A DNA stretch of 64,000 nt from Rhododendron vialii (taxonomy: Eukaryota > Streptophyta > Magnoliopsida > Ericales > Ericaceae), in contig NC_080559.1 in the NCBI RefSeq assembly GCF_030253575.1, forward strand, positions 29,042,501-29,106,500, read 5' to 3'. This document shows, piece by piece, positions 18,589 to 64,000 of this stretch. Position numbers and translations under genes: made by a program. Under the pieces are notes generated by a model. The model did not search any database and was not told where the DNA came from. It worked only from the letters and a program-made list of their open reading frames with translations. The first letter of the stretch is position 1, and every line of letters starts with the position of its first letter.

Positions 18589-19582
18589 TGTTAGAGATTT
18601 TCAAAATAAAAGAGTCGTCGGTTTTGGTTTTGTAAATTTCCTTTGTTTCCTTAGAATGCTTGTTTTCCTCTTTGTGAGCTTTGTCCCACATTGGTTAGCT
18701 GAGAGATGTTGGAGTGGTATATATTAGGAAACATTCCTAATGTAAGTAACGAATGATCTAGTGTGGTGTAGCCCTTTCGTGCTTCGCACCATACCGGCTC
18801 TGCCAGTACACACACGCACGCGCGCGCGCGGCGTGGGCTGTGGCGCTTTAGCAGCGCACTTTACACGTCAGCGCTAGGCACCTTATTGGCGTCATTTCTT
18901 ATTGCGAGTTGGCAGTAAGGTGGCGCTGACGTGGATGACGCGTGTCACACGCGTGGCAGGTGAGTCACACGGGGTGGTTCCGATCGGGTGCGACTCGTGA
19001 GTACAAGTGCGCTGGTCCGTGGAGTTGCGATCGCAACTGTCGGCCGCGAATAGGCTCGATCCAACGGATTGGATCAAATCCGATTGAGTGTGAGTGAAAC
19101 AGCACACCAGTTCGGTGTGACTGATCGATCTAGATCGTAGGATCTGATCCAATGGTCAGACTAGATCGGTTGCATACCCATTCTCAATGGGTGCGTAGTG
19201 GCCTATAAATAGACCACTACTTAGCAGAATCCAGTGCTCATATACACACAAAAAATCCGAAATTCCACATTTCTCTCTATATTTCCTAGCATTCATTCTG
19301 CATTCTGTTTTGCTGCAGAAAACAGAACGCAGTGGTTCTCGGTTCTTATTTCTGTTCAGCGGTATTCTGTCCGTTTTGTTAGTGCAAACGCAAACAGAAA
19401 GAACTTCGAGTTCGGGCTTCGATTTATCTTGAAGGCAGATTTGCTGTAACCCTTTTCATACCATCTGGTGGGGGCAAATACTGTCTTTAGGAAAGCGACA
19501 TAGTCGTGACTCGAAGCGTGTTTCAGATTTGGTGGAGATTTCGCCAACAGTTTAGAATTTGCAGCAGCCAATTTTTTCAACA
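18589..19582 (+). repeat. 5' LTR of the second Copia element
   Basis: It starts TGTTAGAGATTTTC and ends TTCAACA. A TATA-like CTATAAATAGACCAC lies near 19203. The stretch near 18780-18840 is rich in CA and CG dinucleotides. The LTR is 994 bp, 47 bp shorter than its partner, mostly because the 3' LTR carries an internal 67-bp tandem duplication. Confidence 0.9.
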
Positions 19583-19869
19583 ATCTAAAGACAGTACTTG
19601 CGATGGCGATGTCTCTACAGAAAATGACACAAGACTTTCTAAAACTGGAGCGGTTTAAAGGTGGGAATTTCAGGCGTTGGCAGAAGAAGATGCACTTCTT
19701 GCTAACGACCCTGAAACTGGTGTATGTTCTGACTACTCCGAGTCCGGAGATACCCGAAAATCCAGATGAAGAAACTATGGAGCAGGCTCGTGAAAGGGGC
19801 AAGTGGGAGAATGATGACTACATCTGTAGATGACACATCCTCAATGCACTGTCGGATTCACTATTCGAC

Positions 19870-21513
19870 GTGTATCAGAATTCAATGACGGCAAAGGAAC
19901 TTTGGGATGCACTTAACGATAAGTATCTTTCTGATGACGCTACAAGTAAGAAATTTCTTGTTAGTCAATTTATGAATTATCGCATGGTTGATACAAAGCA
20001 GGTCATTGATCAGTTGCATGAGATTCAGTATATCCTCAATCAGTTTAAGGTTAAGAACATGCATATGGATGAATCTATTGTTGTCTCTCTGTTATTGACA
20101 AACTGCCTGCATCTTGGAAAGATTACAAAAAGGAAATCAAACATAAAACCGAGGAACTTACTCTTGATCAGTTGGCCCAACACCTTCGGGTGGAGGAAGA
20201 GACAAGGCGTCAGGAGGGTAAGGATAATTCTACTTCTAAAGTACATGTGGTGGAAGAAAGTTCCAACAAGAAACGCAAAAAACAGGGACGGTGATAAGTC
20301 TTCTGGTAAGTGGAAGAAGCAGAAGCGGGATCCTACCGACACTAGTTGCTGGCATTGCGGCAAACCTGGGCATCTTAAGAAAGATTGCAAAATTCTGAAA
20401 AGGAAGAACTCTGGTGGAAATCCAGGAGCATCTGGGGCAAAGAATTCTAAATTCATTGCTGTTGTTTCCGAGGCAAATATCCTTGATGATGCTGGAGGTT
20501 GGTGGGTTGATTCTGGTGCGACAAAGCATGTCTGCAATGACAAGAGGTTCTTTACTGAGTATAATCCAGTTGCAGATGGTACCGTTCTGTTCATGGGAAA
20601 TGCGTCAACTGCATCAGTTAAGGGAAAAGGCAAAGTGGACTTGGAGTTCACTTCTGGCAAGACGCTGACTCTTACTGATGTGTATCATGTACCGAAAGTT
20701 AGGAAGAATCTCGTGTCTGCAAGTCTACTTAATAAGTATGGTTTTAAAGTAGTGTTTGAGTCGGGCAAAATTGTTATGTCCAAGGGTGGTGTGTTTGTTG
20801 GCAAAGGCTATGTAACCGAGGGGATGTTTATGCTTAATATTAATAACACAGTTGTTTCTGTTTATATGCTTGATTCTTTTTCTTTATGGCACACTCGTTT
20901 AGGACATATCAGTACAAGAAAAATGGATTGCATGATTAAATCAGGACTAATTCCTAAATCTGAAAATGATATGGTTGATAAATGCAAGATTTGTTTAGGA
21001 TCAAAGATAACCAGATTGCCATTTCCTAAAATTGAGCGGACTTCTTCATTAATTGAATTGATTCATAGTGATGTATGTGATTTTCATAACACTCCAACTA
21101 GAGGCGGAAAACTTTATGTGACAACATTCATAGATGATTATTCGAAATTTTGCTATACCTATTTGCTTCATTCCAAAGATGAAGTACTTGATAAATTTGT
21201 TGCATATAAGGCTGAAGTTGAAAATCAATGTGGTTTGAAGATAAAACGTCTTAGGTTTGACAGGGGTGGTGAATATCACTTCCCTGATTATTGTGAATCA
21301 ATAGGGATAATTCATGAAGTAACTGCACCTTATACACCACAACAGAATGGAGTGGCCGAAAGGAAGAATAGAACTTTATTTGAGATGGTGGTTGCTATGC
21401 TAAGCAATGCAGGATTAAGTAAAGGTTTGTGGGGCGAAGCCATACTTACCGCTGCTTATATCCTAAATAGAGTACCTCTCAAAAAGTCTAACATTACTCC
21501 ATATGAACTCTGA
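19870..21513 (+). pseudogene. gag-protease-integrase open stretch of the second Copia element
   Basis: This is the longest open stretch of the element (547 codons). It holds the distal part of gag, the zinc knuckle, the aspartic protease motif DSGA, the GAG pre-integrase region (LWHTRLGH) and the integrase core, including the TPQQNGVAERKNRT block. It is a fossil of a polyprotein, not a host gene. Confidence 0.85.
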
Positions 21514-24103
21514 TAAAAAAGGAAACAAAACTTGAGTTATTTTAAGACTTGGGGATGTAGGGCGATTGTGAGATTGCCTGGACCTAAAAGGAAGAAACTG
21601 GGTCCAAAAGGAATCGAGTGTGTATTTCTTAGATATGCTTTGCACAGTTTAGCATATAGGTTTCTAGTGGCCGAGCCTAATGATGTTGTGTCCATCAACA
21701 CCATCATTAAATCTCGAGATGCAGTGTTCTATGAAAATAGATTTGACAGAATTCCAAGGTTAAAATCTAGTAAATATTTGGAATCTAATAAAGATTTGGA
21801 AGAGTTTCCTTTGATGTCCGAAGAGGACAACGAGCCTTTAGAGGTTCCAGTTGAAGGAAATGAACCTGAGGAACAAGTTGAATTGAGAAGGAGCAAACGA
21901 GTTCGGACAGAGAAAACGTTTGGTCCTGATTTCATAGTTTATCTAGTTGAAGGCACTAGAGAGACTTCATGTGCTCACACTGTATTTTCACTTCACGTTG
22001 AAAATGATCCTTTGACATTTGAGGAAGCAATAAAATCGCAAGACGTGGCTTTCTGGAAAGAGGCTATCTAAGATGAGATGGACTCTATCATGGGTAATAA
22101 TACATGGGTTCTGGCAGATTTACCACCTGGTTCTAAGCCAATTGCTTGTAAATGGATTTTCAAGAAGAAAATAAAAATTGATGAAACTATTGATAAGTTC
22201 AAGGCCAGACTTGTAGTCAAAGGTTTTACCCAGAAAGAAGGTATTGATTACTTTGATACCTATGCCCCGGTTGCTAGAATCTTAACAATTAGAGTTTTCA
22301 TTGCTCTTGCTTCTATGTACAAGTTTGAGATACACCAAATGAATGTCAAGACTGCATTCCTTAATGGTGAGTTAGATGAGAAAATCTATATGAAGCAACC
22401 AGAGGAGTTTGTTTGTGCAAGGTTATGAGCACAAAGTTTGCAAGCTTATAAAGTCTCTTTACGGACTTAAGCAAGCACCGAAGCAATGGCACGAGAAGTT
22501 TGACAAAGTGGTTGTGTCAAATGGTTTTACAATACACCAATCTGATAAGTGCGTGTATAGTAAATTTAATGGCAAACGAGGAGTCATTATCTGTTTGTAC
22601 GTAGACGATATGCTTATTTTTGGTACAGACCAAGAGAGCATTCAGAGTACAAAAGTTTTTCTTTCTGCTAATTTTAGTATGAAAGATATGGGTATTGCTG
22701 ATGTAATATTGGGTATAAGAATTAAAAGAAGTGGTAGTCACTTGATTCTATCCCAGGAACATTACATTGAGAAGATTTTAATGAAGTTTAATCACTTTGA
22801 AAGCAAACCGGTGTCTACTCCGTATGACTCTTAATCACCATTGGATCTTAATGAGGGGAGAGCGGTGTCACAACTAGAGTATTCTAGAGTGATTGGCAGC
22901 TTGATGTATGCCATGACAAGTACAAGACCGGACATTGCATATGTGGTGGGGAGACTTAGTAGGTATACTAATAATCCTGGGCATGTGCATTGGCACGCAG
23001 TATATAGAGTACTGCGGTACCTTAAAGGGACTATAGATTATGGAATAATCTATAGTGGATATCCTTCGGTTCTAGAAGGATACACTGATGCTAATTGGAT
23101 TACTGAGCAAAATGATCACTCGTCAACGAGTGGTTGGGTGTTTACACTTGGTGGAGGGTCAATCTCCTGGGGATCTAAGAAGCAAACGTTGATAACAGAC
23201 TCGACCATGGCAGCCGAGTTTGTAGCATTAGCTTCTGGTAGTAAGGAGGCAGAATGGCTGAGAAATCTGTTGCTGGAAATTCCAGTGTGGCCTAAGCCTA
23301 TGCCACCTGTATCGCTGCATTGTGGTAGTCAAGCTACGTTATCGTGAGCGTATAACCAAGTGTATAATGGAAAGTCCAGGCATATAGGACTTAGACATAG
23401 CAGCTATGTGAGACAATTGATTGTTGATGGGGTGATAACCATTGATTTTGTTAAGTCAAGTCAAAACTTGGCGGATCCTTTTACGAAAGGCCTTGCAAAG
23501 GATTTGGTATTGAAAACATCAAGGGGAATGGGACTTTTGCCCAATTAGTTTAATCACACCTGGTGGAAACTCAACTCAACCGGTTGACACTCTCAATCTC
23601 TTGAGTTCAATGAGAAACTACATCATATGTCGTGATTGAAAACACTTTAAAGCTATTTTACACATTCTAAGGTAAAGTGTTTTGTACCTATAATGTGATA
23701 CAAAGGAGGTTGAACTACTTAGTTCTTAATAGATTGTTTTGTGCTAATGTTATAGGAGCACTGATAACGATCTACCTATGTGAATGTGGAGGTGGTGCCG
23801 CTTCCTATAGGTCACAGGGGCTAGACCTTAGAGCGTTCATGAAATCAAGATAAAAGACCCAAGGCCAATTCACGGGTCAACCGATTGGGATATCTGCATT
23901 ATTTAGAGGATTATGTGTGAGACACGTCCGGTTGGTCGACAGAGGACAACTAGTTCAAAGACACGTCTACTATGCTGCCCTGACCAGCTTTGATAAGTTT
24001 TACTAAGTGAATAGTTCAAGTCGCAAGACACTATTTATGTATGCATAAACCTTGTAATAAGAACCGAGAATATTTCATCTGTATTTCGAAAATGGTGGGG
24101 GAT

Positions 24104-25144
24104 TGTTAGAGATTTTCAAAATAAAAGAGTCGTCGATTTTGGTTTTGTAAATTTTCTTTGTTTCCTTAGAATGCTTGTTTTCCTCTTTGTGAGCTTTGTC
24201 CCACATTGGTTAGCTGAGAGATGTTGGAGTAATATATATTAGAAAATATTCTTAATGTAAGTAACTAATGATCTAGTGTGGTGCTTCGCACCATATCGGC
24301 AGAGTCGGTACATACTAACACACGCGCGCGTGGGCTGTGGTGCATTGTGGCGCTTTAGCGGCGCACTTTGCACGTCAGCTCTTATTGCGAGGTGGCAGTA
24401 AAGTGGCGCTGACGTGGATGACGCATGTCATAAGCGTGGCAGGTGAGTCACACGGGGTGGTTCCAATCGGGTGCGACTCGTGTGTACGGGTGCGCTAGTC
24501 CGTGAAGTTGCGATCGCAGCCGTCGGCCGCGAATAGGCTCGATCCAACGGATTGGATCAAATCCGATTAGGTGTGAGTGAAACAGCACACCAGTTCGGTG
24601 TGACTGGATGTGATTGATCGATCTAGACCGTAGGGTCTGATCCAACGGTCAGACTAGATCGGTTGCATACCCATTCTCAATGAGTGCGTAGAGGCCTATA
24701 AATAGACCACAATTTAGCAAAATTTCAGTGCTCATATACACACAAAAAATCCGAAATTCCACATTTCTCTCTACCACGATTTAGCAAAATTTCAGTGCTC
24801 ATATACACACAAAAAATCCGAAATTCGACATTTCTCTCTATATTTCCTAGCATTCATTCTGCATTCTGTTTTGCTGCAGAAAACAGAACGCAGTGATTCT
24901 CGGTTCTTATTTCCGTTCAGCAGGTATTCTGTCCGTTTCGTTAATGCAAACGCAAACGGAAAGAACTTCGAGTTCGGGTTTCGATTTATCTTGAAGGCAA
25001 ATTTGCTATAACTCTTTGCATACCATCTGGTGGGGGCAAATACTGTCTTTAGGAAAGCGACATAGTCGTGACTCAAAGCGTGTTTCAGATTTGGTGGAGA
25101 TTTCGCTAACAATTCAGAATTTGCAGCAGTCAATTTTTCCAACA
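24104..25144 (+). repeat. 3' LTR of the second Copia element
   Basis: It starts TGTTAGAGATTTTC after a purine tract and ends TTCCAACA, followed by CCTTA. A 67-bp unit at 24707-24773 is repeated in tandem at 24774-24840. The LTR ends 213 bp before the start codon of the UGT pseudogene at 25358, so an LTR promoter region of the same orientation now lies directly upstream of it. Confidence 0.9.
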
Positions 25145-25357: not shown

Positions 25358-26764
25358 ATGGAGGACACCATCATACTATACCCATCTCCAGGAATGGGCC
25401 ACCTAGTTCCAATGGTGGAGCTAGGAAAGCTCATACTAACCCACAACCCTTCATTCTCCATCATAATCCTCATCACCACCGCACCGTTCGACACCGGCTC
25501 CACCTCCTCTTACATCAAGCGCGTCACCGTCGCCACTCCTTCCGTCCACTTCCACCACCTCCCCACCATCTCTCCTCCTTCCACCACCTCCTCGGACAAC
25601 ATCGCTGCACTCGCCTTCGAACTTCCTCGGCTTTACAAATCGAATCTCGACCACGCACTTCAAACAATGATCTCCCAAAAATCAAGACCCAAGGCTTCTA
25701 TAATTGACTTGTTTTGCAATTCCAGTTTTGAAGTCTGCACAAACCTTGACATACCCACTTACTACTTCTGCGCCTCTAGCGCTAGTAGCCTCTCTGCACT
25801 CCTATCACTTCCAAAAACTCATCAAATTCTCTTAGAGAAAAACAAAGACCCAAACACGTCTATTGAATTCCCGGGAGTTCCACCAATCCCTACTCCTGAT
25901 TTGCCTGGGCCTTTCATTGATACTGAGGGAATTGCTTATAAGAGTTTCATTGGCACCGCAATAAACATGGCAAAATCAGCAGGAATCTTGACAAATACTT
26001 GTCACGCATTCGAGCCGAGAGCCGTCAAAGCGATATCCGATGGGCTCTGCACTCCGAATTTGCCACCTCCGTCGGTTTATTGTATCGGACCGATAGTTGC
26101 GAACAGCGGCGAGGATCACGAACACGAGTGTTTGAGATGGCTCGACTCGCAACCGAGTCGAAGTGTTGTGTTTCTCTGTTTTGGTAGTATGGGGTTGTTC
26201 AAAGCAGAGCAATTGATGGAAATGGCAATTGGGTTAGAAAAAAGCGGCCACAGGTTTTTATGGGTAGTGCGTAGTCCACCCGCAGATGGCGAAACCAAGA
26301 GCATTTTAGCAGAGCCAGATTTGGATGTGTTGTTGCCTAATGGGTTTTTAGATAGAACTAGAGGCAGGGGATTGGTGGTTAAGAAATGGGCACCACAAGT
26401 GGCCGTGCTGAGTCATGACTCAGTGGGTGGGTTCGTGACTCACTGCGGGTAGAACTCGATACTAGAAGCGTTGAGCGCCGGGGTGGCAATGGTGGCGTGG
26501 CCATTGTATGCGGAGCAGAGGTTTAACAGAGTTCTTTTGGTGGAGGAAATGAAGGTGGCTCTGGCACTGGAAGAGTCCGAAAGCGGGTTTGTGAGCGCGG
26601 ACAAGTTGGAGAAGCGTGTGAGAGAGTTGATGGACTCAGTGAATGGGAAAGGGGTGAGAGAACACGTTACGGAAATGAGAGACTGTGCTAAGGCAGCAAG
26701 GGGTGACGGAGGGTCGTCTCGTATTGCTTTGGCCGAGTTGGTTGAGTCCTGGAAAAACAGCTGA
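25358..26764 (+). pseudogene. UGT88-like glycosyltransferase pseudogene, single nonsense codon (gene 4)
   Basis: This is a full-length 469-codon UGT88-like frame with one in-frame TAG at 26450-26452 (codon 365). It falls exactly at the Trp of HCGWNS, position 22 of the PSPG sugar-donor box, where TGG became TAG. The reading frame continues unbroken on the far side to 26764. His15 and Asp117 are kept. A second departure is GVAMVAW in the donor box, where all other copies have GVPMVAW. The product would stop within the donor site and lack the C-terminal helix, so it should be inactive. Its closest relative is the gene at 28751, with which it shares its first 33 residues. The single stop and otherwise intact frame point to recent loss. 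A sequencing error, or an allele segregating for TGG/TAG, remains possible. A Copia 3' LTR ends 213 bp upstream. Confidence 0.88.
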
Positions 26765-28750: not shown

Positions 28751-28752
<2 letters not shown>

Positions 28753-30154
28753 GGAGGACACCATCATACTATACCCATCTCCAGGAATGGGCCACCTAGT
28801 TCCAATGGTGGAGCTAGGAAAGCTCATACTAACTCACAACCCTTCATTCACCATCACAATCCTCGTCACCACCGCACCATTCGACACAGGCTCCACCTCC
28901 TCTTACATCAGCGGCGTCTCCACCGCCACTCCTTCCATCCTCTTCCACCACCTCCCCACCATCTCTCCCCCCTCTTCCCTCACCCCCTTCGAACTCACCT
29001 TCGCACTTCCCCGGCTTTACAACTCAAACCTCCGCCACGCCCTTCAAACACTCATCTCCCAAGATTCAAGACCCAAAGCTTCTGTGATTGACTTCTTTTG
29101 CAATCCCAGTTTTGAAGTCTTCACTAGCCTTGGCATACCCACTTACTACTTCTTCACCTCCGGCGCTGGTGGCCTCTCTGCACTCCTAGCAATTCCAACA
29201 ACTCATCAAACCGTTGTTGACAAAATCAAAGATCCAAACACGTCCATAGATTTCCCAGGAGTTCCACCAATCCCCACTCCTGATCTGCCTGAGCCTTACT
29301 CTGATCTTGAGGGAATCCCATATAAGAGCCTCTTTAGCGCCGCAATCAGCATGCCCAAATCATCGGGAGTCTTGACAAACACCTTCATTGAATTCGAACC
29401 GAGAGCTGTCAAAGCGATATCTGACGGTCTATGCAATCCGAGTTTGCCAACTCCACCGATTTATTGTATCGGACCGATAGTTGCGAACAGCGGCGAGGAT
29501 CAGGATAACGAGTGTTTGAGATGGCTGGACTCGCAACCGAGCCGAAGTGTCGTGTTTCTCTGTTTTGGAAGTACGGGGTTGTTCAAAGCAGAGCAGTTGA
29601 TGGAAATGGCAATTGGGTTGGAAAAAAGCGGCCACAGGTTTTTGTGGGTAGTGCGGAGTCCACCCACAGATGGCGGAACCAAGAGCAGTTTAGCGAAACC
29701 AGAGCCAGATTTGGATGTGTTGTTGCCTAATGGGTTCTTGGACAGAACTAGAGGCAGGGGATTGGTGGTTAAGAAATGGGCGCCACAAGTGGCCGTGCTG
29801 AGTCACGGCTCAGTGGGCGGGTTTGTGACTCACTGTGGGTGGAACTCGATACTAGAAGCGGTTGGAGCTGGCGTGCCTATGGTGGCGTGGCCGCTGTACG
29901 CGGAGCAGAGATTTAACAAGGTTTGTTCGGTAGAGGAAATGAAGGTGGCCCTGGCGTTGGAAGAGTCAGAAGGTGGGTTTGTGAGCGCGGACGAGTTGGA
30001 GAAGCGAGTGAGAGAGTTGATGGACTCGGAGAGAGGGAAACGGGTTAGAGAACGGGTCATGGAAATGAGAGATGGCGCCAAGGCTGCATTGGGTGAGGGA
30101 GGGACGTCCCGGGTTGCATTGGCCGAGTTGGTCGAGTCATGGAAAAAGGGTTGA
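28751..30154 (+). CDS. UDP-glycosyltransferase, UGT88-like, gene 5 of cluster
   Basis: This is a 467-residue intronless GT1 enzyme. His15 (PSPGMGHL) and Asp114 (VIDFFC) form the expected catalytic pair. The PSPG donor box is at 343-386, with HCGWNS, Trp at position 22 and a final Gln, predicting UDP-glucose. Within the box the usual Cys of EAxCAGVP is Gly (EAVGAGVP), and the loop before it is FGSTG rather than FGSMG; neither is a known catalytic residue. It is the intact sister of the pseudogene at 25358 and shares with it SGED-type and KAEQLMEMAIGLEKSG blocks absent from genes 1-3. The pair thus forms a second subclade of the cluster. The ATG at 28751 is preceded directly by a (CT)n tract. 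Likely role: cytosolic glucosylation of a phenolic acceptor, not identifiable from sequence. Confidence 0.95.
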
Positions 30155-46146: not shown

Positions 46147-46770
46147 ATGAAAGATCAGGCGGTTCAAATGGCCATCGCCATTCTGGAATCGGCCGCGGCA
46201 GATCACACCGAGGAGGCCCCGAAAAAGAAAAGCCCGTTCAAGAAATATGCCCTGATCGCTCTCGCCGTCCTCGTCTGCGTCGCCGTCACCGTCACCCTCG
46301 GTCTGGTAATCCTCCGCGTGAAGACCCCCAAGTTCCGTCTGGCCTCCGTCGCGGTTAACGATCTCAGTTTCACCAACACTACCACCTCGGCCTCGTTTGA
46401 CATCAGCCTTGACGCGGTTTACGCCGTCAAGAACCCGAATTACGGCCCGTTCAAGTATCGGGGCGCTTACGTTAATTTATTGTATCGGGGGAAAAGGGTG
46501 GGGAAGGCTCGGATAGTCGAGGGAAAGGCCAAGGCTTTGTCCACTGCGGAGGTGGGCTTCAGAGTGAGCGTGAGTTCTCGGGATTTATGGGCGGGTTCGG
46601 ATTTGGGTCTGGATATCGGGTCGGGTATGGTTTGGTTGAGTGTTGGATCCCAGTTGAGAGGGGAAGTGGAGTTTATTAAGGTGATCAAGAAGGACAGAAA
46701 ACCTGAGATGAGCTGCACCATGGCTGTTAATTTAGTGGATAAAGTTGTTCAGAACATGAAGTGTGCCTAG
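46147..46770 (+). CDS. LEA_2/NHL-type single-pass membrane protein A
   Basis: This 207-residue intronless protein has a short acidic then lysine-rich N-terminus (EEAPKKKSPFKK), one membrane segment at about 34-56, the family motif RVKTPKFR at 57-64, and a LEA_2 domain after it with NPNYGPFKY at 96-104. These are marks of the Arabidopsis 'LEA hydroxyproline-rich glycoprotein' (NDR1/HIN1-like) family, type II plasma-membrane proteins linked to defence and stress. The C-terminal domain would face the apoplast. The start ATG follows an A-rich context (AACAGAATGA) and a TATA box 97 bases upstream. It is homologous to the gene at 58754 (both have KTPKFR and a GPxKY motif), and a decayed copy of its 3' part lies at 52048-52235. 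A precise role is not deducible. Confidence 0.93.
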   Translation: MKDQAVQMAIAILESAAADHTEEAPKKKSPFKKYALIALAVLVCVAVTVTLGLVILRVKTPKFRLASVAVNDLSFTNTTTSASFDISLDAVYAVKNPNYGPFKYRGAYVNLLYRGKRVGKARIVEGKAKALSTAEVGFRVSVSSRDLWAGSDLGLDIGSGMVWLSVGSQLRGEVEFIKVIKKDRKPEMSCTMAVNLVDKVVQNMKCA

Positions 46771-52237: not shown

Positions 52238-53155
52238 TAGCTAGCTAGTCGCAAATGGTTAACCTCTGTTGTATTGTGGTACTCTCTCTGTCCTACTTTG
52301 TCCTTTGCGAGGGAATCCTACTTTGTACTTTGTTTGTTCAATATATTTTTTTTTGTCCCAAAATATTTGTTTATTTCAAAAGTTGAAGTACTAATTTTAT
52401 TTTATTTTGCCCTTCTCTTTTGTAGTATTAAATTGTTAAAAATCTTTTTCATGAACAATGATCAAAACCATCCATTTTGTAGATTCCACAAAGAAGAATA
52501 TTTATGGAAAATCTGTATGATTGAACATTAGTTGACATATAGTAAAATGTATTGATGATATAGGCATTTTATGTTCAAAATCATACATGTATGTGTTATA
52601 AAGCAAAATGCACATTGTTCATATAGTTATTGAAATTCAATTAATCAAACTTTTTTTTTCGTAGATGATTTCTCTGCGGAATCTACGATATGAACTATTC
52701 CGATCAATGTTTCAGATCCCTAATTAAAGCCCAAAAACGGAGTATGGATCGAACATGCCTGCTCCAAGTCCACACAACTTTGGCTATAACAACATATAGG
52801 TACCATGTGATGTCATCCAAAGGAAAAACGTAAAGAGAAAACCAGCAAAATTCCACATTATAAGGAGAAGTCCGTTACAAGGCATTTTGCTTCTAGGACT
52901 TGATTGCTAGGAAATGACTAGGAAGGGACATAATATGAGTTGGACAAGGAGCGGTCAGAAGATTGTTGTGGTGTCTCATTATTTGTAATTGACGGTGAAT
53001 ATTGTAGTTTTATTGTATAGTTAGTGTAATTTACAAACATTAACCGGGTCAAATTAATATTTGAAATAAAAAATCAGATAGTATTACTTGTTTTCCAACT
53101 CAATGACAACATATTCTTGACGTCACCAAAAACTGTAGCATTTCGGGAAGGGGGA
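52238..53155. other. spacer between the LEA_2 fragment and the triplicated region
   Basis: AT-rich DNA; no gene recognised. Confidence 0.4.
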
Positions 53156-53176
53156 GGGGGGGGGGGGGGGGGGGGG
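53156..53176 (+). repeat. homopolymer run of 21 G at the edge of a fold-back element
   Basis: A run of 21 G, preceded by GGGAAGGGGGA, directly precedes the left end of the fold-back element. It is the second such run within 1.1 kb. Confidence 0.85.
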
Positions 53177-54256
53177 TGCCACCGCCCCTAAGGGCCGGCA
53201 GCTTGCTGCTATGCTTCAAACTGTGCCGTTTCAAGTACAAATGAAATGACACCATCTCCTTCATTTAATCCTTGTTTGGCTTGTCCTTCCCACCACACCA
53301 TATTTGATGATTTTGTGGGGTTCATTTTGGATCCCAAAAAATTATTCAAACGGGAAGTTGTTCTTAAAATATTTTTTTATGGGTTCATGTAAAAAATTAG
53401 TTCAATTCGACATCCGTAAGTGCTTTTTCAGCATCCTTAGAGACCTTACGAATTCTGAAAAAACTTCACTGATATCATATTGAGCTAATTTTTTTTCGAG
53501 GAACCAATGAAAAGTATTTTAAAATTAAGGAACAGTTTGAATCATCTCTGTGGTTCCCAAAATGGGCCCCAAAATAAATCAATTAATAATCTAAAATTGA
53601 GTGTTCAGTTGTTAATCTATGACTTTTTAAGACTTCATAGGGCCCCTAAGAATGTTAAAAAAGTCCTTACAGATATCGGATTTTGCAATTTTTTTACAAG
53701 AATTCATAAAAAAATATTTTAAGAATAATTTACGATTATAATCATTTTTTTTAAACCTGAAATGGGCCCCACAAAATTATGAAACAACATGCCCATTTAT
53801 TAATTGATTGAGATCATAGCCGTAAGGGCTTTTTAGATTATTGATTGATTTTTTTGTGGGGCTCATTTCGGGGACCACAAAGATGATTCAAACTGTTTAT
53901 TAGTTTAAATTAAGAATACTTTTCATTGGTTCCTCAAAAAAAAATTAGCTCAATTCAATATCAGTAAAACTTTTTCAGAATTCGTAAGGCCCTTACCTAT
54001 GCTGAAAAACTCTTACGGATATCGGACTGAGCTACTTTTTTACACGAACCCATAGAACAAAATTTTAAGAATAACTTGTGGTTTGAATCATTTTTTGAAA
54101 TCCGAAATGGACCCCGCAAAATCATTAAACATGATGTGGTGGGAAGAACAAGCCAAACAAGGATTAAATGAATAAGATGGTGTCATTTCTTTTGTGCTTG
54201 AAACGGCACAGTTTGAGGCATAGCAGCAAGCTGTTGTCCCTGAGGGGCAGCAGCCC
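53174..54256. mobile_element. fold-back (long TIR) element, copy 1
   Basis: The left arm (CAGCTTGCTGCTATGCTTCA, then CTGTGCCGTTTCAAG and CCATCTCCTTCATTTAATCC) is repeated inverted at 54090-54256 with few changes, an arm of about 180 bp. The interior also pairs with itself (AATGGGCCCCAAAA / TTTTGTGGGGCTCATTTC type blocks), so nearly the whole ~1.08 kb can fold. There is no coding capacity. Mutator-like or another fold-back type is likely. In the two tandem copies that follow, the first ~77 bases of the left arm are missing because the duplication breakpoint lies within it. Confidence 0.85.
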
Positions 54257-55093
54257 ATCGATACTCAGTTTCGACCCATATATCTATAATTTGTGAATCA
54301 AATAGCGCGTACAACAGATCATAAGAAAATAAGTAAAACATTCAGAAATTTTACGCACACAACTTTAAAACTCAATTCGGTTGTGTCCAAAACCGTTTCT
54401 ATGTGTCTATCGAACAAACGCGGATGCAATCGTATTTTAAAGTTGTGTGCATAGTAATGTTCTACTAAAACACATCAAGGACAAACCCCAGAGGATAGTA
54501 TCAAACTAAACGATTGGCATATATCGAGAAGAGTGGAAGACTTTCGTATTACCAACCTCTTGAGACTTGGCAAGATAACCGTGTTGTGAGCTTTACATCC
54601 GGGAAAAACAAATCCCCATTAAGCCCATACCTATTTCCTCTTTCATTTTCAGCGTCGAAGCTTCTATCACCATTTTCCAACACTCCAAAATATCTGAAAA
54701 ACTTACCCACAAAAGTCAAGATTCAAAGCTGCCACCTAACACCTTTCTGTACCTTCAAATATTCGTTTCCCTCTCTCTCCTCTCTCTCTCTCTCTCTCTC
54801 CTCGAACACATTCTTCAAAGGAAGGCGTTTCTCTAACTTCCTTCCTTTGCCCACAACTTGCATGTACACACCCGATGTAAGATAGTACTTATATTCCCCA
54901 TCTATAAATAGAGCCCCCCACTTTCCATTAACATCCACAAACAACATTCATCAGCACTGCTACAGAGCAAAAGCCAAAAGAAATATATCTTCTTAGTTAA
55001 AAATCCTTTAAACTCAGCCCTTCTACTTGATTATCTTTCCTCTGTTTCACTCTCTAGATTGCTATGGCAGAGGGGCAGAAATCAGGATATGAC
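53251..55093 (+). repeat. tandem unit 1 of 3 (promoter triplication)
   Basis: The unit of 1843 bp runs from inside the left arm of a fold-back element through the promoter and 5' leader of the LEA_2 gene to its tenth codon. It is followed head-to-tail by units 2 and 3. Apart from the length of a (CT)n tract the three looked identical wherever I compared them, and the encoded open frames (a 71-codon and a longer spurious one) are letter-for-letter the same. Confidence 0.95.
54902..54909 (+). promoter_or_regulatory. TATA box, promoter copy 1
   Basis: CTATAAAT, within TCTATAAATAGAGCC, lies 162 bases before the ATG at 55064. The same box recurs at 56749 and 58592. Confidence 0.7.
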
Positions 55094-55111
55094 ACCATCT
55101 CCTTCATTTAA
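55064..55111 (+). pseudogene. truncated LEA_2 start, 15-codon decoy frame (copy 1)
   Basis: The first ten codons of the LEA_2 gene at 58754 (MAEGQKSGYD) are followed at the duplication joint by TISFI and a stop. If promoter copy 1 is used, the transcript would open with this short frame before reaching the downstream units. Confidence 0.9.
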
Positions 55112-56613
55112 TCCTTGTTTGGCTTGTCCTTCCCACCACACCATATTTGATGATTTTGTGGGGTTCATTTTGGATCCCAAAAAATTATTCAAACGGGAAG
55201 TTGTTCTTAAAATATTTTTTTATGGGTTCATGTAAAAAATTAGTTCAATTCGACATCCGTAAGTGCTTTTTCAGCATCCTTAGAGACCTTACGAATTCTG
55301 AAAAAACTTCACTGATATCATATTGAGCTAATTTTTTTTCGAGGAACCAATGAAAAGTATTTTAAAATTAAGGAACAGTTTGAATCATCTCTGTGGTTCC
55401 CAAAATGGGCCCCAAAATAAATCAATTAATAATCTAAAATTGAGTGTTCAGTTGTTAATCTATGACTTTTTAAGACTTCATAGGGCCCCTAAGAATGTTA
55501 AAAAAGTCCTTACAGATATCGGATTTTGCAATTTTTTTACAAGAATTCATAAAAAAATATTTTAAGAATAATTTACGATTATAATCATTTTTTTTAAACC
55601 TGAAATGGGCCCCACAAAATTATGAAACAACATGCCCATTTATTAATTGATTGAGATCATAGCCGTAAGGGCTTTTTAGATTATTGATTGATTTTTTTGT
55701 GGGGCTCATTTCGGGGACCACAAAGATGATTCAAACTGTTTATTAGTTTAAATTAAGAATACTTTTCATTGGTTCCTCAAAAAAAAATTAGCTCAATTCA
55801 ATATCAGTAAAACTTTTTCAGAATTCGTAAGGCCCTTACCTATGCTGAAAAACTCTTACGGATATCGGACTGAGCTACTTTTTTACACGAACCCATAGAA
55901 CAAAATTTTAAGAATAACTTGTGGTTTGAATCATTTTTTGAAATCCGAAATGGACCCCGCAAAATCATTAAACATGATGTGGTGGGAAGAACAAGCCAAA
56001 CAAGGATTAAATGAATAAGATGGTGTCATTTCTTTTGTGCTTGAAACGGCACAGTTTGAGGCATAGCAGCAAGCTGTTGTCCCTGAGGGGCAGCAGCCCA
56101 TCGATACTCAGTTTCGACCCATATATCTATAATTTGTGAATCAAATAGCGCGTACAACAGATCATAAGAAAATAAGTAAAACATTCAGAAATTTTACGCA
56201 CACAACTTTAAAACTCAATTCGGTTGTGTCCAAAACCGTTTCTATGTGTCTATCGAACAAACGCGGATGCAATCGTATTTTAAAGTTGTGTGCATAGTAA
56301 TGTTCTACTAAAACACATCAAGGACAAACCCCAGAGGATAGTATCAAACTAAACGATTGGCATATATCGAGAAGAGTGGAAGACTTTCGTATTACCAACC
56401 TCTTGAGACTTGGCAAGATAACCGTGTTGTGAGCTTTACATCCGGGAAAAACAAATCCCCATTAAGCCCATACCTATTTCCTCTTTCATTTTCAGCGTCG
56501 AAGCTTCTATCACCATTTTCCAACACTCCAAAATATCTGAAAAACTTACCCACAAAAGTCAAGATTCAAAGCTGCCACCTAACACCTTTCTGTACCTTCA
56601 AATATTCGTTTCC

Positions 56614-56647
<34 letters not shown>

Positions 56648-56940
56648 CTCGAACACATTCTTCAAAGGAAGGCGTTTCTCTAACTTCCTTCCTTTGCCCA
56701 CAACTTGCATGTACACACCCGATGTAAGATAGTACTTATATTCCCCATCTATAAATAGAGCCCCCCACTTTCCATTAACATCCACAAACAACATTCATCA
56801 GCACTGCTACAGAGCAAAAGCCAAAAGAAATATATCTTCTTAGTTAAAAATCCTTTAAACTCAGCCCTTCTACTTGATTATCTTTCCTCTGTTTCACTCT
56901 CTAGATTGCTATGGCAGAGGGGCAGAAATCAGGATATGAC
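55094..56940 (+). repeat. tandem unit 2 of 3
   Basis: This unit is 1847 bp, four more than the others because its (CT)n tract (about 56626-56646) has two more repeats. It includes a fold-back element truncated at its left end (to 56099), the promoter, the leader and ten codons. Confidence 0.95.
56749..56756 (+). promoter_or_regulatory. TATA box, promoter copy 2
   Basis: CTATAAAT at the same offset (162 bases) from the copied ATG at 56911 as in the other two units. Confidence 0.7.
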
Positions 56941-56958
56941 ACCATCTCCTTCATTTAA
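56911..56958 (+). pseudogene. truncated LEA_2 start, 15-codon decoy frame (copy 2)
   Basis: It is identical in sequence to the frame at 55064-55111: ten LEA_2 codons, then TISFI and a stop made by the joint. Confidence 0.9.
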
Positions 56959-58783
56959 TCCTTGTTTGGCTTGTCCTTCCCACCACACCATATTTGATGA
57001 TTTTGTGGGGTTCATTTTGGATCCCAAAAAATTATTCAAACGGGAAGTTGTTCTTAAAATATTTTTTTATGGGTTCATGTAAAAAATTAGTTCAATTCGA
57101 CATCCGTAAGTGCTTTTTCAGCATCCTTAGAGACCTTACGAATTCTGAAAAAACTTCACTGATATCATATTGAGCTAATTTTTTTTCGAGGAACCAATGA
57201 AAAGTATTTTAAAATTAAGGAACAGTTTGAATCATCTCTGTGGTTCCCAAAATGGGCCCCAAAATAAATCAATTAATAATCTAAAATTGAGTGTTCAGTT
57301 GTTAATCTATGACTTTTTAAGACTTCATAGGGCCCCTAAGAATGTTAAAAAAGTCCTTACAGATATCGGATTTTGCAATTTTTTTACAAGAATTCATAAA
57401 AAAATATTTTAAGAATAATTTACGATTATAATCATTTTTTTTAAACCTGAAATGGGCCCCACAAAATTATGAAACAACATGCCCATTTATTAATTGATTG
57501 AGATCATAGCCGTAAGGGCTTTTTAGATTATTGATTGATTTTTTTGTGGGGCTCATTTCGGGGACCACAAAGATGATTCAAACTGTTTATTAGTTTAAAT
57601 TAAGAATACTTTTCATTGGTTCCTCAAAAAAAAATTAGCTCAATTCAATATCAGTAAAACTTTTTCAGAATTCGTAAGGCCCTTACCTATGCTGAAAAAC
57701 TCTTACGGATATCGGACTGAGCTACTTTTTTACACGAACCCATAGAACAAAATTTTAAGAATAACTTGTGGTTTGAATCATTTTTTGAAATCCGAAATGG
57801 ACCCCGCAAAATCATTAAACATGATGTGGTGGGAAGAACAAGCCAAACAAGGATTAAATGAATAAGATGGTGTCATTTCTTTTGTGCTTGAAACGGCACA
57901 GTTTGAGGCATAGCAGCAAGCTGTTGTCCCTGAGGGGCAGCAGCCCATCGATACTCAGTTTCGACCCATATATCTATAATTTGTGAATCAAATAGCGCGT
58001 ACAACAGATCATAAGAAAATAAGTAAAACATTCAGAAATTTTACGCACACAACTTTAAAACTCAATTCGGTTGTGTCCAAAACCGTTTCTATGTGTCTAT
58101 CGAACAAACGCGGATGCAATCGTATTTTAAAGTTGTGTGCATAGTAATGTTCTACTAAAACACATCAAGGACAAACCCCAGAGGATAGTATCAAACTAAA
58201 CGATTGGCATATATCGAGAAGAGTGGAAGACTTTCGTATTACCAACCTCTTGAGACTTGGCAAGATAACCGTGTTGTGAGCTTTACATCCGGGAAAAACA
58301 AATCCCCATTAAGCCCATACCTATTTCCTCTTTCATTTTCAGCGTCGAAGCTTCTATCACCATTTTCCAACACTCCAAAATATCTGAAAAACTTACCCAC
58401 AAAAGTCAAGATTCAAAGCTGCCACCTAACACCTTTCTGTACCTTCAAATATTCGTTTCCCTCTCTCTCCTCTCTCTCTCTCTCTCTCTCCTCGAACACA
58501 TTCTTCAAAGGAAGGCGTTTCTCTAACTTCCTTCCTTTGCCCACAACTTGCATGTACACACCCGATGTAAGATAGTACTTATATTCCCCATCTATAAATA
58601 GAGCCCCCCACTTTCCATTAACATCCACAAACAACATTCATCAGCACTGCTACAGAGCAAAAGCCAAAAGAAATATATCTTCTTAGTTAAAAATCCTTTA
58701 AACTCAGCCCTTCTACTTGATTATCTTTCCTCTGTTTCACTCTCTAGATTGCTATGGCAGAGGGGCAGAAATCAGGATATGAC
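56941..58783 (+). repeat. tandem unit 3 of 3, continuous with the intact gene
   Basis: This 1843-bp unit again begins within the fold-back arm (element to 57946) and ends at codon ten, but here the coding sequence continues (GACGGCCACCCATTGG), so this is the original downstream end of the locus. Confidence 0.95.
58592..58599 (+). promoter_or_regulatory. TATA box of LEA_2 gene B (promoter copy 3)
   Basis: CTATAAAT, 162 bases before the ATG at 58754. A CT-rich tract lies about 100-140 bases further upstream. Confidence 0.7.
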
Positions 58784-59383
58784 GGCCACCCATTGGCACC
58801 CGTCAACGGTTATGCCCGAAGCGACGCGGAGGCAGCGACTACTAATACAGAGGAGCTCCGCCGCCAGAAGCGGAAGAAGTATTTGATATACTTCGCAGCA
58901 TTTGTGGTATTCCAAACTCTTATCATAGTCCTGTTTTCGTTAACTGTGATGAAAGTAAAGACTCCCAAATTCCGGGTCCGCTCTTCTTCTTGGATTAACA
59001 TGGTCGACGTCCAACAAACTTCGTTTACCCTCAACATGAATGCTGAATTCGGGATCAAGAACACCAATTTCGGTCCATACAAGTACGACAGCACCATGGT
59101 CTACTTCCAGTACAACGGTATTCAAGTTGGGAGTGCCGTTATTCCCAAGTCAAAAGCCAATTTCCTATCTACCAAAAAGATCAATGTCCCAGTGGACCTC
59201 TCATCTGCCAATCTATCGGGCAATACTTCGAATTCTGAATATTTGACTCTGACGAGCACGGCCAGATTGAGCGGGAAGGTGGAGCTGATGCTCATCTTCA
59301 AGAAAAAGAAAGCCGTGAACATGGATTGCATCATGGATGTCAATACCAGGACCAGAGAGCTCCTGAATATCGTTTGCAAATGA
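58754..59383 (+). CDS. LEA_2/NHL-type single-pass membrane protein B
   Basis: This 209-residue intronless protein is of the same family as the gene at 46147. The N-terminus (1-41) is hydrophilic and ends in a basic cluster (RRQKRKK), then comes one membrane segment at about 42-64, the motif KVKTPKFRVR at 67-76, and a LEA_2 domain with NTNFGPYKY at 103-111. It is expected to be a type II plasma-membrane protein with the LEA_2 domain outside, in the NDR1/HIN1-like group tied to defence and stress. The full gene is the third of three tandem copies of its own promoter and start; the upstream two are truncated after ten codons. The ATG is preceded by TTGCT and a TATA box 162 bases upstream. A Copia LTR begins 306 bases after the stop. 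Confidence 0.94.
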   Translation: MAEGQKSGYDGHPLAPVNGYARSDAEAATTNTEELRRQKRKKYLIYFAAFVVFQTLIIVLFSLTVMKVKTPKFRVRSSSWINMVDVQQTSFTLNMNAEFGIKNTNFGPYKYDSTMVYFQYNGIQVGSAVIPKSKANFLSTKKINVPVDLSSANLSGNTSNSEYLTLTSTARLSGKVELMLIFKKKKAVNMDCIMDVNTRTRELLNIVCK

Positions 59384-59688
59384 TAGTTTCTTAAGCTGCG
59401 TGCTTTGGAAATTATTTTTTGTCCTTTTAATTTTATAACCATATGTATTTTTGTTTCTCATAATTATATTGGGGACAGTACGTTCGTGTTTGATGTATTA
59501 TAGCGAGGCTGTAGTCCCCCTACTGTGGTAATTTTCTTTGTAATTTTCTTTTGCTTATTGAATGGATTTGTATTGGTAGATTTATCTGTCTTGATTCTCG
59601 ATCTTGAATGCTTCAGAGTTGACTGCTTGTGAAAGGAAGTTTAGGGTTGTATAAATTATCCAAAAAAAAAAAACTTTAGGGTTGTGTT
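59384..59688. other. 3' region of LEA_2 gene B
   Basis: Likely 3' UTR; the stretch near 59555 (TTGCTTATTGAATGGATTTG) is typical of plant 3' ends. It runs to the edge of the Copia LTR at 59689. Confidence 0.5.
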
Positions 59689-60003
59689 TGTTGTAACGAA
59701 CGCTATGAATGCAAGCTAAGAACGAGAAATTGAAAACTAAACAAGAAATCACAAAGACACAAGATATACGTGGTTCCCCAAGATGGGTACGTCCACGGGC
59801 GAGGAGAGAGAGGATTCACTAACCAACGTGAAGAAGAGATACAAAGAGCCGGCTATAATCCGTAACTCTAGAAAGGCCACAATATGAAAGCCCAAAAGAT
59901 AATTTCTAGAAGTACCCCAAAAGCCTTATTTATAATAGGCTACAAAAACGGGAACAACATAATTAACCAATGTGGGACTAAAGAATACAAGGCATTCCTA
60001 ACA
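59689..60003 (-). repeat. 3' LTR of the right-hand Copia element
   Basis: On the minus strand it begins TGTTAGGAATGCC after the purine tract and ends GTTACAACA, a length of 315 bp. The block with GTGGACGTACCCATCTTGG is shared with the LTR at 3491-3842. It lies 306 bases after the stop of LEA_2 gene B. Confidence 0.85.
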
Positions 60004-60069
60004 ATTCTCCACCTTGACTTGAATTCCACTGAACCAAATCACCAAATATAGCTATCCCCTTCTAACCTC

Positions 60070-62721
60070 TCACTCGCCAAATGCCCCCGAGGGGCGATCA
60101 ACTGCAAATACCAAGCAATGCTTGAACTTGGCAACCGGAACCGGTTTAGTCAACATATCTGCTGGGTTATCTGCCGTACCCACTTTCTTCACCTCAACTT
60201 GCTTCTGTGAGATGATATCCCGAACGAAGTGATACCTGACATCGATATGCTTAGTTCTCTCATGATACATCAGATTTTTAGTCAAATGTATAGCACTCTG
60301 CGAATCACAAAATACTGAACTCACACCCTGTGCAAGACCAAGCTCACAAAGCAAACCTCTCATCCACAATGCCTCCTTCACAGCTTCAGCAATGGCCATA
60401 TACTCCGCTTCTGTTGTAGACAGCGCAACTGTAGCCTGTAAAGTAGCTTTCCAACTAATGGCACTTCCGGACAGAGTAAAGACATAACCTGTCAGAGACC
60501 TCCTCTTATCGTGGTCACCGGCAAAATCCGAATCAACATAACCAACAGCATGATCACCAGAATTGACAATCCCAAACAATAGACCAACACCTGCAGTTCC
60601 GCACAAATACCGTAGTATCCATTTCACAGCCTCCCAATGTGCCTTTCCTGGACGCCCCATATAACGACTAACGACACTAACTGCATGTGAAATATCAGGA
60701 CGAGTACATACTATGGCGTACATAAGGCTCCCAACTGCGCACGAATATGGAACCTGAGACATATACTTCTCCTCATCCTCCGACTGTGGTGACAACTCAG
60801 CTGAAAGTCGAAAGTGTGCTGCCAAAGGGGTACTGACTGGCTTCGAGTTCTGCATGGCAAAGCGCTCAAGTACTTTAAGAACATAAGACTTCTGATTCAA
60901 AAATAATTTGCCAGCTACTCGATCTCTGCAAATCTCCATACCCAAAATACGTTTTGCCACACCCAAATCTTTCATCTCAAATTCACCACCTAACTGTTGT
61001 TTCAACCTGTTGATTTCTGACACACTCTTGGCAACAATAAGCATATCATCAACATACAATAGTAGATAAACAAATGAACCATCTGGAAGTTTTCGAAAAT
61101 ATACACAACTGTCATACTCACTCCTAGAATATGACTGGCTTATCATAAAAGTATCAAACCACTTATACCACTGCCTAGGGGATTGTTTGAGACCATACAA
61201 AGACTTACGAAGTAAACAAACGTGATCCTCCTTACCAGAAACAACAAATCCCTCAGGCTGACGCATATAAATCTGTTCCTCAAGCTCGCCATGCAAAAAC
61301 GCAATTTTGACATCAAGTTGCTCTAACTCAAGATCATAACATGCAACAATAGCAAGCAAAGTGCGAATGGAACTATGTTTTACAACTGGTGAAAATACCT
61401 CATTGTAGTCAACACCTTCCTTCTGGCTGTATCCTTTCGCCACTAGCCGAGCTTTAAACCGAGCGTCTTCTACCCCTGGAATACCTGGTTTGCGCTTGAA
61501 GATCCACTTGCATCCAACAATCCTCTTCCCTTTCAGCGGTTCTACTAACTCCCATGTCTGATTCTTCTGAAGAGACTCAATCTCCTCATTCATAGCAACA
61601 AACCACTGTGCAGACTCAGCGCTCAAAATAGCTTCCGTATAGCTTGAAGGCTCCTCATACTCAACTGTTTCAGCAACTGATAAAGCATAGGCCACCATCT
61701 CAGAATAAGCCGAATACCTTTCAGGAGGCCGAATCTCCCTCCTTGGCCTATCTTTAGCAATAGTGCGTGGTTGCTCAACTAATGCATCAACCTCTGTGTC
61801 TGAACTCTTGAACTCCTCTTCAATTGGCTTCTCAATGTGCTTCTTCCCTGAGTCGGAAGATTCACCCAAAAACTCCACCTGCTTTGGAACACTATGTTCT
61901 TGAACTGTATCATCAACCTGCTTAGACCCCTTAATCAGATAATTTTCATCAAAAGTCACATCCCTACTGATCAAAAACTTCAAATCATCAGAGCACCATA
62001 ACCTGTACCCTTTGACACCTGCTGCATAACCCAAGAAAATACACTTCTTGGCCCGTGGCTCCAGTTTACCTTCATTCACATGAGCGTAAGCTGGACACCC
62101 AAAAACACGCAACATAGAATAATCAGCCGGATGACCTGACCATACCTCAAACGGAGTCTTACACTCAATAGCAGTCGACGGAGACCTGTTCACCAAATAG
62201 CATGTTGTGGAAACGACTTCAGCCCAAAATTCTTTGCCCAATCCGGAATTGGACAACATACAACGTGCCTTCTCCAAAAGAGTCATGTTCATTCGTTCAG
62301 CCACACCATTTTGCTGAGGGGTTTTTCTCACAGTGTGATGCCTCACAATGCCCTCATCACTGCAAAATCTATCAAACTCGCCAAGACAAAACTCCATACC
62401 ATTATCAGTTCTCAAACGTTTTATTTTCTTACCAGTCTGATTCTCAATCAAAGTTTTAAACTGTTTGAATGTATTAAAGGCGTCACTCTTATGTTTCAAT
62501 ATATACACCCAAACCTTACGAGAGAAATCATCTATAATACTCATAAAATATCGAAAACCACCTTTAGAAGTTACCTCTGCGGGACCCCAAAGATCCGAGT
62601 GAAAATAATCCACCGTGCCTTTGGTGCGATGAACAGCTGTACTGAATTTTACCCTGCACTGCTTGCCGTAGACACAATGCTCACAGAAATCCAGTTTCTC
62701 AATTTTCTGGCCACATAGCAA
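60070..62721 (-). pseudogene. integrase-reverse transcriptase-RNase H open stretch of the right-hand Copia element
   Basis: This is an open stretch of 883 codons with the integrase core (TPQQNGVAERMNMT block), the Copia reverse transcriptase (KGYSQKEGVDYNEVFSPV, then YVDDM) and RNase H (ALSTTEAEYMA, DSQSAIHLTK). It is the polyprotein remnant of a mobile element, not a host gene; no initiator is implied by its upstream limit. Confidence 0.9.
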
Positions 62722-64000
62722 ACCCTATTTGCTCAAAACTGTCATCCCCCTCTCGCTCATATGCCCAAGGCACATATGCCACAAACGAGTCAAGTCTGAA
62801 TCTGAAACCTTGGATGAAGCAACCGTTGCTGCAGCACCTATAACTGTACTGCCCTGGAGTGTATAGAGGTTACCACGCTTCTGACCCTTCATCAGTACTA
62901 ATGCACCCCTTGAGACTTTCAAAACTCCACCTTCACCGAGGAATTTGCAACCATGAGAATCAAGAGCACCCAGGGATATAAGATTTTTCTTCAAATCCGG
63001 AACATGTCGAACCTCAGATAAAGTCCTAACAATACCGTCATGCATCCTAAGCTGAATCGTTCCTGAACCAACAGTCTTACAGGCCATGTTGTTGCCCATC
63101 AAAACTGTACCACCATTGACCGCCTCATAAGTAGAAAATCACTCTCTATGCGGACACATATGGTATGAACATCCAGAATCTAGAACCCACTCGGTATTAG
63201 AGCGAGAATCGCCCTCTGTAACTGATAACACATTATCTGACTCATCTGAACTTTCAGCAATTCCAGCAATTACTTTACCCCTTTTCTGGTCTTCTTTTTC
63301 CTTCTCCTTGAGTTTTAAACAGTCACTTTTCCAGTGCCCGGGTTTCTTGCAATAATTGCACTTTCCCTTCTTCTTACCTGATGATCTGGATCTTCCCCTA
63401 TTACTCGACTCCACCCTTTCTGTTGTTCTTCCCCTAACAAACAAACCCTCCGCATGTGCATCACCCTCACCTGACACTTTTTTTCCTCAATTCTTTCGAA
63501 TATAGGCTGGCCTTAACATCCTCCATGGATATCGTGTCTTTGCCATACAATAGGGTTGTAACAAAGTGCTCATACGAAAGTGGTAAAGAACATAGCAAAA
63601 TTAGGGCTTGGTCCTCATCCTCAATTTTACTATCAATATTTTTCAGATCCATAATAATACGGTTGAACTCGTCTAAATGATCTTTAACAGGTATACCTTA
63701 TCGCATACGAAACGTATAAAGACGTTGTTTGAGATATAACCTGTTGGTGAGCGACTTCGTCATATATATGCCTTCCAACTTCAGCCAAATTCCTGCTGCT
63801 GAAGTTTCTTCTTCCACCTCGCGAAGAACGTCATCTGCCAGACTCAACTGAATAGAACTCAGAGCTTTGGCATCCGTATCATCCCAATCTTCCTCTTTGA
63901 TTCCAGAACTAGTCTTGCCTAACAAAACCTTGTGCAATCCTTGTTGGGTTAACAAAGCCTTCATCTTTACTCTCCAAAGACTGAAACTGCTGCTCTGCCC

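Follow-up and report, generated by a model that had tools for sequence, protein, structure and literature searches.

An apparent recent tandem triplication of a fold-back element, promoter region and coding start upstream of a LEA_2 gene in Rhododendron vialii

A complete LEA_2 gene on contig NC_080559.1 of Rhododendron vialii is preceded by three head-to-tail units of 1843, 1847 and 1843 bp. They lie in the window, the whole 64-kb stretch of DNA that we analyzed (GC 39.5%, no N). Each unit opens with a fold-back (terminal inverted repeat) element whose right end precedes the TATA box by about 650 bp; the intervening sequence includes a CT tract, and the TATA motif is followed by a leader and a start codon (55064, 56911 and 58754). 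If transcription starts 33 bases after the TATA motif begins, then the leader is about 129 nt long and contains no ATG. The features of the locus are as follows.

53246 to 55088, plus strand: unit 1, 1843 bp, with the fold-back element minus its outer left tip, the promoter, the leader and the first codons
55089 to 56935, plus strand: unit 2, 1847 bp, with (CT)12 where the others have (CT)10
56936 to 58778, plus strand: unit 3, 1843 bp, continuous with the complete gene
53173 to 54256, no strand assigned: the only full copy of the fold-back element, about 1.08 kb, with approximate ends taken from the match to a relative
55089 to 56099, no strand assigned: element copy 2, without the outer left tip, starting within codon 9 of truncated gene copy 1
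56936 to 57946, no strand assigned: element copy 3, without the outer left tip
54780 to 54799, 56623 to 56646 and 58470 to 58489, plus strand: the CT tract, as (CT)10, (CT)12 and (CT)10
54902 to 54913, plus strand: TATA motif of unit 1; the others begin at 56749 and 58592
55064 to 55111, plus strand: truncated start 1, MAEGQKSGYD followed by TISFI and a stop, 15 amino acids
56911 to 56958, plus strand: truncated start 2, with the identical 15-amino-acid reading frame
58754 to 59383, plus strand: the complete LEA_2 gene, an uninterrupted frame of 209 amino acids
53246 to 53250, plus strand: microhomology ATGAC at the left breakpoint, repeated at 55089 to 55093, 56936 to 56940 and 58779 to 58783

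Comparing the units with one another bears out the head-to-tail arrangement and unit lengths that a sequence-only reading had described. Units 1 and 3 are the same at all 1843 bases, and unit 2 matches both after 4 bases are removed from its CT tract, the sole site of difference as had been claimed. The TATA box, leader and first ten codons do recur in every unit, and only the last gene copy is complete, with copies 1 and 2 stopping after 15 codons. That reading was also right to place fold-back sequence in each unit, but it counted a single arm where both arms are present. The last base of the repeated block is the end of codon 10 (58783). When the 64-kb window was compared with itself on the plus strand, direct repeats of 300 bp or more at 95% or greater identity turned up nowhere else, which sets the array apart locally. 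Positions 52500-60000 were searched against Rfam without any match reaching the gathering score.

ATGAC is common to all four boundaries: the left edge of the array, which falls inside the left arm of the element, both joints between units, and codons 9-10 of the gene. It is the longest exact match at the joints, where there is no long homology, and this is the pattern of a microhomology-mediated tandem duplication. A match of 5 bp or more at a random joint has a chance of about 0.5-0.6%. Because ATGAC occurs at every boundary, the boundary position can be moved within 5 bp. Only the element at unit 1 has the outermost ~70 bp of its left arm, which lie to the left of that unit; they are missing from units 2 and 3. 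A run of 21 G residues lies directly to the left of the array.

Long inverted repeats are known to stall replication. The left breakpoint of the array lies inside an inverted-repeat arm, and the rearrangement may have begun when the DNA broke or a replication fork stalled at the fold-back element. Template switching or end joining would then have linked this site, through microhomology, to codons 9-10 of the gene and created one tandem copy, and later unequal exchange between identical units could have added the third. The identical ATGAC at both joints is expected if the third unit arose by such an exchange.

A similar array could also result from an assembly or polishing error in which a single unit was written three times, an alternative that the sequence-only reading had raised. 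The identity of the units apart from the CT tract, the G run adjoining the array on its left, and the use of gap closing and short-read polishing in this assembly (PMC10338486) are all compatible with an error of this kind. However, the array spans only about 5.5 kb, and the HiFi reads reported for the haplotype A assembly average about 18 kb, more than three times this length, at roughly 60x (PMC10338486). Haplotype A has only 5 gaps by the same account and the window is free of N, the CT tract is not equal among the units, and both joints have the same microhomology. A mis-join from another locus was rejected, since a genome-wide search with the promoter stretch 57940-58460 (3/3 candidates scored, very common words skipped) matches the three units only; the missing fourth match also argues against an assembly error. 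We consider such an error very improbable, and the array is very probably a real, young rearrangement in haplotype A of R. vialii.

The youth that had been proposed for the triplication agrees with the identity of the units. With 0 substitutions over 1843 bp on at least two branches, the 95% upper limit is about 3/(2 x 1843) = 8e-4 changes per site on each branch, but this bound gives no firm age because short-read polishing could even out unit differences, and near identity may therefore overstate how young the array is. Taken as a rough guide, plant substitution rates place 8e-4 per site at around 100,000 years in order of magnitude.

The complete gene belongs to the LEA_2 / NHL-like group, with a Pfam LEA_2 match (PF03168, E = 7.6e-6) over residues 101-192 that scores 26.7 bits, above the curated cut-off of 25.4. 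In NHL proteins a membrane-spanning segment precedes the LEA_2 domain. Inspected by eye, the translation of the gene shows a hydrophobic stretch. The gene heads a local cluster with relatives at C3:29110708 (90%), 29122702 (85%) and 29114657 (75%), and two further relatives are found on C8 (75% and 74%). A codon tree of six genes places it as the sister of 29110708 (support 97, dN 0.067, dS 0.294).

We report here that the focal LEA_2 protein has changed faster than its sister. When three outgroups are used in turn, it has 14, 15 and 15 private changes versus 0, 2 and 1 in the sister (p = 0.0002, 0.0016 and 0.0005). Leaving out the first 20 columns gives ratios of 11:0, 8:2 and 9:1 (p = 0.0009, 0.058 and 0.011); the counts are small, and the three tests overlap in data. 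Nucleotide counts show a weaker excess (36:22, 37:17 and 36:20; p = 0.066, 0.0065 and 0.033), which is not significant with any of the three outgroups when the first 20 codons are omitted (p = 0.17, 0.33 and 0.53). The dS values to 29122702 are similar for the focal gene and its sister (0.41 and 0.44), so the focal excess lies in amino acids. We infer that most of this protein change is older than the triplication. Import of the coding start from elsewhere was also considered but is improbable: the family has a variable N-terminus, and four of the five relatives that were compared have the same first bases, ATGGCAGA. Similarity to the paralogs starts at 58790, only 7 bp beyond the breakpoint, which is probably a coincidence.

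The promoter that was tripled may itself have been acquired by this gene. Upstream regions of 400 bp were compared by local alignment with CT runs masked, and 100 mononucleotide shuffles were made for each comparison. The focal region scores 20, 21, 24, 28 and 28 against the five relatives, where the shuffle maxima are 34, 31, 30, 30 and 27; a single comparison (C8b, 28 versus 27) exceeds its maximum, by one point. As judged from these alignments, a result new here, the tripled promoter has no clear similarity to the promoters of the five relatives, which is not proof of none. Among themselves, 29110708, 29114657 and the C8 pair clearly resemble one another over the same 400 bp (scores of 81-144 versus shuffle means near 20). 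Because the sister retains the promoter type seen in less closely related genes, replacement of the focal promoter is likely; gene conversion of the gene body alone would look the same. The promoter of 29122702 (para2) has no similarity to that of para1 (20 versus a shuffle mean of 19.9) or to those of the other three relatives, so promoter turnover is not unique to the focal gene. The focal promoter is older than the triplication.

The arms of the full element (53184-53427 and 54005-54248) have 244 nt each and are 86% complementary. Relatives are widespread, with at least 141 matches genome-wide when 40 of 1090 candidates were scored and an element matched on both strands is counted separately. 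Among the matches listed are a near-full-length copy at C10:33557515-33558599 (90%) and a partial copy at C12:123533 (90%), and, by eye, copies spaced about 1.84 kb apart occur among them only at the array locus. The element has G-rich ends, with its left end at the G run. Inspection by eye of the window copy, and of those relatives whose ends were examined, revealed no target-site duplication. The element is consequently given no superfamily, although MULE and hAT types were considered.

Transcription from the upstream promoters, if they are active, would yield an RNA that encodes 15 amino acids and then enters the ~950-nt hairpin formed by the element of the next unit. The sequence 55089-56040 folds at -464 kcal/mol (z = -33; mean of -194 and sd of 8 for 20 shuffles), and it contains one AATAAA, at 55416, which is 352 bases past the first truncated start. 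Such a hairpin RNA would be expected to be diced or ended early and not to be translated into LEA_2 protein. Read-through from unit 1 would produce a leader of 3.8 kb with 48 ATGs, versus none in the native leader. The hairpin, the AATAAA and this leader together make it more likely that the upstream promoters yield short, diced or early-ended RNAs; these promoters may also simply not fire.

A less likely but serious rival is that the last gene is activated, its expression made stronger, broader or otherwise enhanced by stacked promoters or repeated enhancers. Each unit has an intact TATA motif and leader, unit 3 continues without interruption into the gene, and additional enhancer copies at 1.8 and 3.7 kb upstream could add to its expression. 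Directly before each ATG is a pyrimidine-rich stretch ending in AG, which could allow splicing into the last leader, and upstream transcripts may be spliced past the hairpins in this way. However, among the 70 GT sites within the repeat period that follows unit 1's start, the best is a weak donor (2.2 bits on a donor matrix), and transcripts that start upstream must pass the 48 ATGs and as many as two long hairpins on the way to the gene.

The closest known layout is that of wheat Vrn-A1a, in which the proximal promoter and exon 1 are reported to be duplicated around a fold-back element with high basal transcript levels (PMC13065874), a precedent that favors activation. This duplicated region with its inserted element is also reported in PMC8626038 and PMC3095301, the wheat VRN1 element insertion is described in PMC9676936 as well, and the spring foldback element is given as 222 bp (PMC3095301). 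In both Vrn-A1a and the array, a proximal promoter and a coding start are duplicated together with a fold-back element at one gene. The array differs in having three near-identical 1.84-kb units and a much larger element of about 1.08 kb; its breakpoint at codon 10 cuts off the upstream copies, and the two genes are unrelated. The strength of Vrn-A1a as a precedent for activation is lessened in that its expression reportedly may stem from disturbance of a repressor site by the element and not from the duplication.

A second comparison points in the opposite direction. The Arabidopsis FWA promoter has tandem repeats and a SINE and is silenced; its repeat structure varies among species, and in A. 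lyrata more repeats appear to go with stronger silencing, as described in PMC3431836. Both FWA and the array have tandem direct repeats with transposon sequence over the transcription start, which is predicted here from the TATA motif. In contrast to FWA, the array has 1.84-kb repeats that cover the first ten codons of the gene as well as a long inverted repeat, and its silencing is only putative. The FWA repeats are much shorter than these units.

Other systems share parts of this anatomy. Cis-elements in transgenes, especially tandem repeats, are reported to be prone to noncoding RNA, 24-nt siRNA and RNA-directed DNA methylation (RdDM), with this outcome for 3/6 elements tested (PMC11500991). 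Rearranged copies such as maize Muk, which acts on MuDR, and Arabidopsis PAI give rise to small RNAs that silence their relatives (PMC3431836). The array is unlike Muk and PAI in that its fold-back is a short noncoding element in the promoter region, with arms that match the element and not the promoter. Muk RNA is reportedly of hairpin origin. The C. elegans rcan-1 rearrangement likewise repeats a promoter region and first exons and makes truncated copies, with lowered expression, and truncated copies with new tails are predicted in both cases; the rcan-1 locus as described has inversions and two complete copies, whereas the array is plainly head-to-tail with one complete copy (PMC7058356). 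By analogy, the array could be viewed as the anatomy of Vrn-A1a multiplied and combined with the repeat structure of FWA, and it could act in either direction.

With somewhat better than even confidence, we favor a young tandem triplication of microhomology origin with dead-end upstream RNAs and a net effect that is likeliest neutral to repressive. The last copy, with its native upstream sequence, would make the protein, and the repressive side of this effect would come from small RNAs and from methylation across the three units. A wholly neutral array, with silent remnants upstream and a last copy that functions as before, is a tentative but serious reading, and nothing found here speaks specifically against it. 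The last frame is open, unit 3 keeps 1843 bp of native upstream sequence, and selection is not required for a young rearrangement. It is improbable, in our estimation, that the locus is a new FWA-type epigenetic switch near its origin, in which the upstream promoters transcribe the next hairpin to produce a self-feeding siRNA supply whose strength is set by unit number. If true, the switch would determine the state of a stress gene that changes fast and whose promoter is a new acquisition.

The mechanism of origin is ordinary; the anatomy is unusual and has a known parallel in wheat. The locus illustrates that promoters can be reshaped by a non-autonomous element and that a stress-gene paralog may come under an unrelated promoter. 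Related plant layouts diverge in outcome, with Vrn-A1a expressed and FWA silenced, and the array offers a nearly time-zero case in a wild shrub for which the second assembled haplotype is a possible control. It would let one test whether unit number, the hairpin or the position of the breakpoint decides between expression and silencing, and its importance will grow if unit number controls this outcome.

A Ty1-copia-like LTR retroelement lies about 300 bp beyond the stop of the focal LEA_2 gene. It occupies positions 59686-64000 on the minus strand and continues past the end of the window to C3:29106904. Its LTRs are 318 bp each and are unlike at 2 of the 318 sites, and a reading frame within the element (60070-62721) has RVT_2 and integrase matches. 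The element is young. Elsewhere in the window (18589-25144), direct repeats spaced approximately 5.5 kb apart flank copia-like reading frames on either side. These repeats, which are 92-98% alike, are probably LTRs.

UDP-glycosyltransferase-like genes are clustered at 7012-30154, where a 300-nt stretch is present in five copies. The single cluster member tested (the copy at 28751-30151) gave a UDPGT match, and the frame at 25358-26452 is, at 364 aa, shorter than the other frames there. The left end of the fold-back element carries a run of 21 G nucleotides (53156-53176); among the relatives whose ends were compared, some have shorter G-rich ends.

Upstream of the focal gene, at a distance of about 12 kb, there is a second, more distantly related LEA_2 gene (46147-46770, 207 aa; Pfam match E 4.5e-8). 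On another contig, C8, two near-identical LEA_2 genes are spaced approximately 19 kb apart (L021, C8:11983365; L022, C8:12002462). They differ by a dS of 0.014, and their upstream regions are also near-identical to each other. This pair is a recent whole-gene duplication within the family of the focal gene.
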